From Euzebya pacifica (GTDB taxonomy: Bacteria > Actinomycetota > Nitriliruptoria > Euzebyales > Euzebyaceae), in assembly GCF_003344865.1 (NCBI RefSeq), contig NZ_CP031165.1, positions 1,803,910 through 1,867,909 of the forward strand: 64,000 nt of DNA. Reading direction: 5' to 3'. Below are positions 15,441-18,014 of the stretch, in pieces; the first letter of the stretch is position 1, and each line of letters begins with the position of its first letter. The notes beneath the pieces are model-generated. The model had not been told where the DNA came from, searched no databases, and saw only the letters and a list, made by a program, of their open reading frames with translations. Both the position numbers and the translations under genes were made by a program.

Positions 15441-17926
15441 GCGAGACCGAGCAGCAGGACCTTCCCGACGACGCAGGCGAGGACCGGACCGAACGGACCC
15501 GTGTGCGTCGACGCACCGCCCGCCCCATCGCCGTCGACCCGTTCGCGGTGGACACCGACGAGGAGTCCGACGACGACGCCGAGGACGAGGCCGAGGACAC
15601 CACCGAGGCGTCCTCGACCGACACCGACGAGGCTCCGGCCGACGAATCCGACGCCGACGAGTCCTCCGACGATTCCTCCGACGCCACCGAATCCACCTCC
15701 GCGGCGTCCAGCAACAGCGACGACAACAGCGACAGCGACGACAACGGCGACAGCGGCAAGGGCGACAGCGACGGCAGCGGCGGCAGCCGCGGCGACGCAT
15801 CGGGCGAGACCGGCGAGGACAAACCGCGCCGGCGCCGCCGCCGGGGACGCCGTGGCCGCGGCCGTGGTCGTGGCGGCGCGGACGGCCAGAACCAGACCGA
15901 CGACGACTCCTCCGACGGCGACTCCAAGGACGGCGCCTCCAGGGACGGCGACTCCAAGGACGGCGACTCCAGGGACGGCGACTCCAGGGACACCTCCACG
16001 GACGACGGTGGCGATGCGGCCGCGGACGGCGACGAGCAGCGGTCCGGCTCCGGCAAGGGAAACCGGACCCGCACCCGTACCCGCGCCCAGCAGCGCACCG
16101 CCGGCGATGACACCGACCGCGAGGACGACGAGGGCGAGTCAGCACAGGCCGACTCGGCACAGGCCGGGTCAGCACAGAGCGATGACGACGACGCCGAGGG
16201 CGACGACCGTTCCGACAAGAAGTCCGACCGCGGCGGCTCCAACCGCAACCGGTCCGGCAAGGGCCGTCAGGGTGATCGCTCGGGCAGGGGTGGCCAGCAG
16301 AAGTCCGACAACGGGAAGGGCGGCTCCAGCGGCCAGAAGGCCAAGGACGAGTCCGACGAGGACGACTCGACCCGGGACCCCTCCGACACCAACGAGGGCA
16401 AGGACTCCGGGGGCGCCAAGGACGACGACGGCGACGACGACAAGGGCCGGTCGGGCCGTCGGCGCCGTCGTGGTCGTCGGGGACGTGGCCGTCGTGGCCG
16501 GTCCGGTGGCGGCGGGGGCGGTTCCGCCAACAAGGGCGACGGTGGCAGCAAGGACGACCAGGGTGCCCCGACGCGCCTGAGCGCCCGCTCGCAGCGCACC
16601 AGCGGCGGTCGCCGCCGGGTGCCGTCGGTCAGCCCCGAGACCCGCCGGGTGATGGCCGAGAGCCCGCCCAAGCGGATGCTGGTCACGGTCGGCAAGGAGC
16701 GCACCCAGATCGCGGTGCTCGAGGAGCGCACGCTGGTCGAGCACTACGTCACCCAGGCCTCCGAGGCCTCCTACGTCGGCAACATCTACAAGGGCCGTGT
16801 CCAGAACGTCCTGCCCGGCATGGAGGCGGCGTTCGTCGACATCGGCAAGGGCCGCAACGGCGTGCTGTACGCCGGTGAGGTCAACTACGACGAGGCCGAC
16901 CGCGACGGTGGCCTTCCCCGCATCGAGCAGGCCCTCAAGTCCGGACAGCCCGTCATGGTGCAGGTCACCAAGGACCCGATGGGCACCAAGGGTGCACGCC
17001 TGACCCAGCACCTGTCGCTGGCCGGCCGCTACTGCGTCCTGGCCCCCGGCGACGACATGCTGGGCATCTCCCGCAAGCTGCCCGACGACCAGCGCGACCG
17101 CCTGCGCAAGATCCTCAAGGGCCTCAAGCCCGAGGGCTTCGGCCTGATCGTGCGCACCGCCGCCGAGTCGGCGACGGCCGAGCAGCTGGAGGCCGACGTG
17201 GCTCGCCTGCTGGAGCGCTGGAAGAAGGTGGAGGAGAAGGCGGAGAAGGCCAAGCCGCTGGAGTCCATCTACTCCGAGCCGCAGCTGGTCCTGCGCGTCA
17301 TCCGCGACGTGTTCGGCCCCGAGCACACCCAGCTCATCATCGACGATGCGGAGCTGGCCGACGAGGTCCGCTCCTACCTGTCGGAGGTCAGCCCCGAGCA
17401 CGTCGCCAAGGTGGTCACCTACGACCCGCCGGCCCAGGCCGACGGCGGCGTGGAGCGCCTCTTCGACGCCTACGAGGTGACCACGCAGATCCGTCGGGCC
17501 CTGGAGAAGAAGGTCTGGCTGAAGTCCGGCGGCTACCTGATCATCGAGAAGACCGAGGCCATGTGGGTCATCGATGTCAACACCGGCAAGTTCGTCGGCA
17601 AGGACAACCTCGAGGAGACGGTCCTCCGCAACAACATCGAGGCCGCCGAGGAGATCGCCCGCCAGCTCCGGCTGCGCGACATGGGCGGCATCATCGTCAT
17701 CGACTTCGTCGACATGATCGTCCAGGCCAACCGTGAAGAGGTCCTGAAGCGGTTCAAGCGCGAGCTGGCCCGCGACAAGACCAAGTCCCGCGTGATGGAG
17801 ATCTCCAAGCTCGGCCTGGTCCAGATGACCCGCAAGAACGTCTCCAAGGGCCTGATGGAAGCCTTCACCGAGGAGACCGACGACGTCATCCCGGGGCGGC
17901 GCATCGTGGAGGACCTGCTCGCGTAG
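15437..17926 (+). CDS. rne: ribonuclease E/G with long disordered N-terminus
   Basis: An 829-residue endoribonuclease for mRNA turnover and rRNA processing. Residues 1 to ~410 are low-complexity, with acidic D/S/E runs, basic RRRRRGRRGRGRGRG-like blocks and a 6-residue DGDS(K/R) repeat, probably for RNA and partner binding. The catalytic core follows: S1 domain (VGNIYKGRVQNVLPGMEAAF), then the DNase I-like subdomain with both metal aspartates in IDVNTGKF and GGIIVIDFVDM. The protein stops soon after MTRKNVSKGLMEAF: the CPxC zinc-link normally found there is absent and the tail reads TDDVIPGRRIVEDLLA. The last codons lie in a directly repeated element. The GTG start overlaps DUF2344. Confidence 0.93.
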   Translation: MSETEQQDLPDDAGEDRTERTRVRRRTARPIAVDPFAVDTDEESDDDAEDEAEDTTEASSTDTDEAPADESDADESSDDSSDATESTSAASSNSDDNSDSDDNGDSGKGDSDGSGGSRGDASGETGEDKPRRRRRRGRRGRGRGRGGADGQNQTDDDSSDGDSKDGASRDGDSKDGDSRDGDSRDTSTDDGGDAAADGDEQRSGSGKGNRTRTRTRAQQRTAGDDTDREDDEGESAQADSAQAGSAQSDDDDAEGDDRSDKKSDRGGSNRNRSGKGRQGDRSGRGGQQKSDNGKGGSSGQKAKDESDEDDSTRDPSDTNEGKDSGGAKDDDGDDDKGRSGRRRRRGRRGRGRRGRSGGGGGGSANKGDGGSKDDQGAPTRLSARSQRTSGGRRRVPSVSPETRRVMAESPPKRMLVTVGKERTQIAVLEERTLVEHYVTQASEASYVGNIYKGRVQNVLPGMEAAFVDIGKGRNGVLYAGEVNYDEADRDGGLPRIEQALKSGQPVMVQVTKDPMGTKGARLTQHLSLAGRYCVLAPGDDMLGISRKLPDDQRDRLRKILKGLKPEGFGLIVRTAAESATAEQLEADVARLLERWKKVEEKAEKAKPLESIYSEPQLVLRVIRDVFGPEHTQLIIDDAELADEVRSYLSEVSPEHVAKVVTYDPPAQADGGVERLFDAYEVTTQIRRALEKKVWLKSGGYLIIEKTEAMWVIDVNTGKFVGKDNLEETVLRNNIEAAEEIARQLRLRDMGGIIVIDFVDMIVQANREEVLKRFKRELARDKTKSRVMEISKLGLVQMTRKNVSKGLMEAFTEETDDVIPGRRIVEDLLA
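15910..15990 (+). repeat. 18-bp coding tandem repeat in rne
   Basis: About five copies of a GACGGCGACTCCAAGGAC-like unit encode the DGDSKD/DGDSRD hexapeptide repeat in the disordered N-terminal arm of RNase E/G. The copy number may vary between strains. Confidence 0.75.
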
Positions 17927-18014
17927 CCTGCGGAGCGAAGGTCCTCCACTGGGTTGGAGGCCGCGCGAAGGCGCCTGGCCGGGCTGACATCGTGGAGGAC
18001 CTGCTCGCGTAGCC
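17902..18014 (+). repeat. 27-bp direct repeat spanning the rne stop codon, with an inverted part
   Basis: The 27 nt at 17902-17928 recur exactly at 17988-18014 (core GGAGGACCTGCTCGCGTAGC). Between them, GCGAAGGTCCTCC at 17937-17946 and flanking bases is nearly the inverted complement of GGAGGACCTGCTCGC, so the first copy can fold into a hairpin across the rne stop. A shorter GCTCGCGTAG piece follows at about 18025. This looks like a repeat element or a local duplication at the end of rne. Confidence 0.7.

Follow-up and report, generated by a model that had tools for sequence, protein, structure and literature searches.

The RNase E/G of Euzebya pacifica and its sampled family lacks the zinc-link cysteines, and the repeat behind its gene is a later duplication

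How an RNase E/G came to lose the paired cysteines of its zinc-link (Zn-link), and whether a repeated sequence at the 3' end of the gene had a part in this, are the questions raised by the rne locus of Euzebya pacifica. The locus lies in the window, by which we mean the whole stretch of 64,000 nucleotides that was analyzed (positions 1,803,910 to 1,867,909 of contig NZ_CP031165.1). The rne open reading frame (15437-17926, plus strand) encodes a protein of 829 amino acids that is the sole RNase E/G match in the genome and is recognized by PF10150 (1.8e-101; 339.6 bits at a cut-off of 25.5) and by the Rne/Rng model TIGR00757 (455 bits; cut-off 326). The NCBIfam model of mycobacterial RNase E gives a weak full-length match below its cut-off (500 of 1400 bits). 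The RNase_E_G catalytic domain covers residues 527-801 (17015-17839, plus strand), and both the catalytic positions F57, K112, D303, N305, and D346 and the 5'-sensor positions G124, V128, R169, and T170 (E. coli numbering, as listed in the available part of PMC10126417) are aligned and conserved in the product, with all nine invariant in our alignment A1. The N-terminal region contains a 15-bp tandem repeat of 6.2 copies (15899-15991) that encodes GDSKD/GDSRD units.

The protein ends in TDDVIPGRRIVEDLLA (in a longer stretch, MTRKNVSKGLMEAFTEETDDVIPGRRIVEDLLA, followed by the stop codon). A sequence-only reading of this locus had proposed that the Zn-link is lost, and this holds: there is no CxxC, the motif TDDVIPGRR stands in its place (residues 814-822; 17876-17902, plus strand), and the only cysteine of the protein is residue 533, with none C-terminal of it. 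The motif is followed by IVEDLLA (17903-17923, plus strand), so that the product stops 7 residues past it without a small domain of the E. coli type; this domain is likewise absent from relatives of families f2 and f3, where the proteins stop right behind the link. Each of the five genomes of family f1, which comprises the E. pacifica window genome and four relatives, gave a single RNase E/G match and no second one when searched, and a link-bearing second enzyme as a backup is therefore out.

The distribution of the two kinds of tail follows the family boundary. Among 61 genomes searched, 57 gave an RNase E/G match, and the tail was read at 30 loci, with the other 27 matching genomes lying outside this reading; one locus (L040) is truncated at a contig end, and the remaining 29 tails are 5 from f1, that is, all f1 genomes sampled, and 24 from elsewhere. 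The Cys-free motif is found in 5/5 of the former and 0/24 of the latter, all of which (three class-level genomes included) have CxxC, and within f1 only the window genome has the repeat. The f1 tails read FTEETDD(V/A)IPGRRIVEDLLA, with FTEPTDDVIPGRRLIKKLLDE in the second genus, and the related families have homologous ends with CxxC, for example CDVCEGRGSQIIDDLLV or, at locus L024, FTTKCDVCEGRGSQIIDDLLV. As these CxxC-bearing relatives end in a tail of the IIDDLLV/IVESMLG type that aligns with IVEDLLA as its homolog, the IVEDLLA-like end is older than the loss of the cysteines. Another 40 loci from contig records, partly from the same metagenome-assembled genomes (MAGs), have CxxC in each of the 37 where the link is readable; the other three (L080-L082) do not reach it. 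MAGs titled 'Euzebyaceae bacterium' (L046, L047, and L050) carry CxxC, so f1 is not identical to this record label.

This pattern extends to a wider sample of the phylum, in which 296 genomes were scanned with a DNA pattern for MTRK...CxxCxG. It matched in 171 genomes, a few of which may be chance matches since the reversed control pattern also matches in 6 genomes. The 125 nonmatching genomes are the 5 of f1 and 120 others, all of which were searched with the C-terminal part of RNase E: an RNase E/G was found in 67 (28/40 plus 39/80) and no match in the remaining 53, and CxxC is present in 66/66 of the readable proteins, with one further locus (L115) cut by a contig end. Within the 296-genome sample, f1 is the only family with loss of the Zn-link. 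As a separate observation, the tool-assigned families f15, f16, f24, and f39 include many near-complete actinobacterial genomes without any RNase E/G match, and two f15 genomes nevertheless match the Zn-link pattern. In the titles and abstracts that we found there is no published natural loss of the RNase E Zn-link, including for actinobacteria, and searches for Euzebya together with RNase E or for "zinc sparing" together with RNase E found no paper.

How narrowly the change is focused can be seen from an alignment of the 5 f1 rows against the 24 others over 450 columns, beginning where the catalytic region starts. We called a column diagnostic if all f1 rows share a residue that no other row has and if the commonest other residue reaches at least 60%. 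Only 6 of the 450 columns are diagnostic for f1, and 5 of these lie within the 24-column link stretch, in which K replaces Q/H, T replaces the first C, a D has been added, I replaces the second C, and P replaces E/D/N. The hypergeometric chance of this clustering is 1.6e-6, a rough value as columns are not independent. The same definition yields 14 diagnostic columns for the f2 clade and 18 for the class-level clade, none of them in the link stretch, and not a single one in 300 random five-row sets. Between genomes of the two f1 genera (G000 and G004), the 12 link codons differ by 10 synonymous changes and 1 nonsynonymous change, and the 32 codons before the link by 11 synonymous and 3 nonsynonymous changes. 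Since change in the link codons is mostly synonymous, the Cys-free motif is held by selection. The loss of the Zn-link is best read as an ancestral, focused rewrite. A tree built without the tail is compatible with a single origin, weakly supported (74/26).

The neighborhood of rne gives a relative order of events. In G004, rplU directly follows the Cys-free rne at about 140 nt, and 9 further genomes among the 24 non-f1 relatives have an L21 gene within the stretch that follows rne. Across the genus of the window genome, rplU is on the same strand as rne at a distance of about 2.5 to 15.9 kb. In the window genome itself (stretches 17927-18087 of the window and G000:C1:1821832-1837689), the gene after rne encodes cytochrome oxidase subunit II and rplU is 15.9 kb away, and G001 and G003 have a small reverse-strand dodecin-like open reading frame behind rne. 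Because G004 combines the adjacency of rne and rplU with a Cys-free tail, loss of the Zn-link predates the insertions behind rne, and we rejected a rearrangement at this site as the cause.

A possible context for this loss is found in the ribosomal proteins of the same genomes. L31, L33, and L36 have exactly one match each in 5/5 f1 genomes, and in all five they lack Cys ligand pairs, with a single Cys retained in L36. The genes for L28, L33, and L31 are mutually adjacent in G000-G004 (loci L160-L174). We checked 24 related genomes of other families for L33, which was detected in 17 and not in 7; all 17 have the four-Cys form, and the same 17/17 have a CxxC RNase E. One genome with a CxxC RNase E, G008, has in addition a Cys-free L33 with a Cys-free L31 close by. 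The neighborhood of these genes (L192) includes an open reading frame with the P-loop start VVVVSGVPGAGKSS. By eye this open reading frame resembles a metal GTPase of COG0523, and we take the cluster to be like a Zur-type low-zinc cluster. S4 and S14 were not found in the stretches examined in f1, where L36 is encoded away from the main ribosomal operon.

According to the available text of two studies (PMC6103462 and PMC3087516), Cys-free ribosomal paralogs come into use when zinc is low and can set zinc free, and one of these studies describes most zinc-binding ribosomal proteins as missing in Alphaproteobacteria (PMC3087516). As Alphaproteobacteria keep a CPHC in RNase E (PMC12510024, in the portion available), zinc-free ribosomes do not entail loss of the Zn-link. 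That f1 has nothing but Cys-free L31, L33, and L36 nevertheless makes zinc economy a reasonable cause, although the association is that of one clade, with effectively one event on each side.

Taken together, we consider it likely that the ancestor of f1 replaced the Cys pair of RNase E/G with TDDxIPGRR and that the enzyme probably forms a zinc-independent dimer, in keeping with the loss of zinc from L31, L33, and L36. In the common ancestor of the family, codon changes at the site together with a small indel would have turned the Cys pair into T-D-D-x-I-P-G-R-R. The catalytic and 5'-sensor residues are still in place in the protein, which stops shortly past the link. The principal dimer would most likely persist through a protein interface, TDDxIPGRR could serve as a zinc-independent link in which the acidic pair, the new upstream Lys, and the arginines stabilize the dimer, and the enzyme would be active without zinc. 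This would fit a lineage that gave up its zinc-binding L31, L33, and L36. The bolder version, in which RNase E was rebuilt as a zinc-independent enzyme with TDDxIPGRR itself joining the subunits and within a permanent zinc economy that includes L31, L33, and L36, is one that we put forward tentatively, as possible yet somewhat short of probable. AlphaFold models of the window protein and of the CxxC relative at L024 have a mean pLDDT of 51 and 52 from a shallow 24-row alignment; both place two short strands around the link at a confidence too low to count as evidence.

It is possible, though we think it unlikely, that the tail has lost any part in joining subunits, so that the enzyme would be a dimer of large domains or a monomer and TDDxIPGRR would be kept, for example, for docking of a partner protein or RNA. 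The motif is evidently constrained for some reason, and the lack of a small domain in f1 as well as in f2 and f3, with proteins ending just past the link, lends partial support to such an arrangement; however, the change stays within the link position and the residues flanking it and no new tail has arisen, which fits a replacement that serves the same local role. We regard it as improbable that the site still binds metal with the carboxylates of the Asp pair, or other residues, as ligands: a conserved Asp pair occupies the first-ligand position in 5/5 f1 genomes, but the segment is without Cys or His, the second Cys has become Ile, and the same genomes dropped zinc ligands elsewhere.

To the repeat behind rne the sequence-only reading had assigned a role, suggesting that the gene may have lost its original 3' end to an inserted repeat or to a duplication at the site. 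The repeat itself is as that reading described it: a 27-bp sequence at 17902-17928 recurs exactly at 17988-18014 (both on the plus strand) at a spacing of 86 bp, and a partly inverted copy lies between (17926-17949, minus strand), able to pair with either of them, with a 17-base repeat core at 17933-17949 (minus strand) that has 2 mismatches. This pair is the longest nontandem exact direct repeat within 400 bp in the window, and it is not a chance match. The first copy includes the end of the gene, though with seven sense codons plus the stop codon and not with eight codons as proposed; the second is intergenic. The term "repeated element" does not apply, given that the 27-mer, with up to 3 mismatches allowed, is found at these two neighboring places and nowhere else in the 6.37-Mb genome (two contigs). 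Furthermore, blastn with a 241-bp query returned only the query itself and matches of at most 57 query bases, and we rejected a dispersed repeat or mobile element on these grounds.

In the closest relative, G002, the RNase E query region is 99% identical and the coding 3' end is the same, and pairwise alignment shows that about 86 bp downstream of the rne stop codon are absent. The corresponding noncoding insert in the window genome, 3' of the stop codon, spans 17929-18014 (plus strand), limits that are approximate by up to the length of the repeat. The octamer TCGCGTAG occurs 3 times in the window, always in the 3' region of rne, and G002 too has an additional TCGCGTAG after the stop codon, which makes slippage between short copies of this type a plausible origin of the 86-bp duplication. 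The insert can form a hairpin of -30.9 kcal/mol with the stop codon in its loop. Folding of the 126-nt segment is unexceptional (z -1.56; 16/200 shuffles fold as well), there is no terminator-like site, and Rfam gave nothing credible, with no family near threshold; with this, the hairpin as a terminator or known RNA was set aside. Since G002 is without the insert and neither folding, terminator, nor Rfam searches single it out, the repeat is a recent, noncoding, and probably neutral duplication of the gene end, with copy 1 as the original.

A local duplication therefore did occur as suggested, while the replacement of the 3' end that it was meant to explain is one to which we give practically no credence. 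The last rne codons do overlap the repeat; however, all four other f1 members have the same Cys-free tail with no repeat, the insert is missing from G002, and the 27-mer is not dispersed in the genome. Repeat-free relatives with this tail and a repeat without further genomic copies are the two observations that the sequence-only reading had itself named as refuting it. The shared coding end in G002 and the four repeat-free tails show that the repeat played no part in loss of the Zn-link, and the homologous ends of the CxxC-bearing relatives mark the last rne codons as the old 3' end, with the repeat a later addition. A sequencing error or frameshift hiding a normal Zn-link can be dismissed with similar assurance, as the same motif occurs in five separate genomes with many synonymous differences. 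Elsewhere in the window, a GC-rich 22-bp tandem repeat (50969-51094; 5.7 copies) lies just past the end of a dehydrogenase-like open reading frame (51114-52076, minus strand), and an 18-bp tandem repeat (32815-32884; 3.9 copies) reads GTCGGGTGTCCCGGAACG.

An old loss of the Zn-link combined with a constrained substitute makes f1 a natural experiment on the purpose of the link. TDDxIPGRR presents itself as a short zinc-free module that is open to testing, and the case suggests that an economy of zinc can reach past ribosomal proteins and paralog swaps into a core enzyme of RNA decay. By sequence, the fold is that of the catalytic half of E. coli RNase E (PDB 2bx2, 2vrt, and 2vmk; 2.9e-73 to 2.8e-73, residues 2-399). 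In the available part of PMC2631609, the E. coli enzyme is described with one zinc shared between paired CPxCxGxG motifs and a small domain behind the link, whereas the f1 enzyme has no Cys at the link and no small domain; mutation or deletion of CPxCxGxG leaves the E. coli enzyme with no tetramer and substantially reduced activity. Where the tetramer is kept artificially, activity is preserved (PMC12510024, in the text available), and both sources, as far as they are available, describe the Zn-link as organizing quaternary structure and active site, with badly impaired laboratory mutants when it is missing. Cyanobacterial RNase E is like the enzymes of f1, f2, and f3 in that the small domain is missing (according to the accessible text of PMC10989914). 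The f2 and f3 enzymes, for example at L017 and L024 from Egibacter and Nitriliruptorales MAGs, share 74 to 80% identity in the catalytic region and have the same short C-terminus but differ from f1 in that every readable one has CxxC. Streptomyces RNase ES and mycobacterial RNase E likewise start with a long charged N-terminal region, so that the catalytic domain has a central or late position, and the available part of PMC10126417 gives CvrCnGrG at the link of Streptomyces coelicolor, which is Cys-free in f1. Cys-free paralogs of L31, L33, and L36 have lost their CxxC zinc ligands just as the f1 RNase E has, but among ribosomal proteins this change comes about by a swap of paralogs, whereas in f1 RNase E it took place within a single gene.
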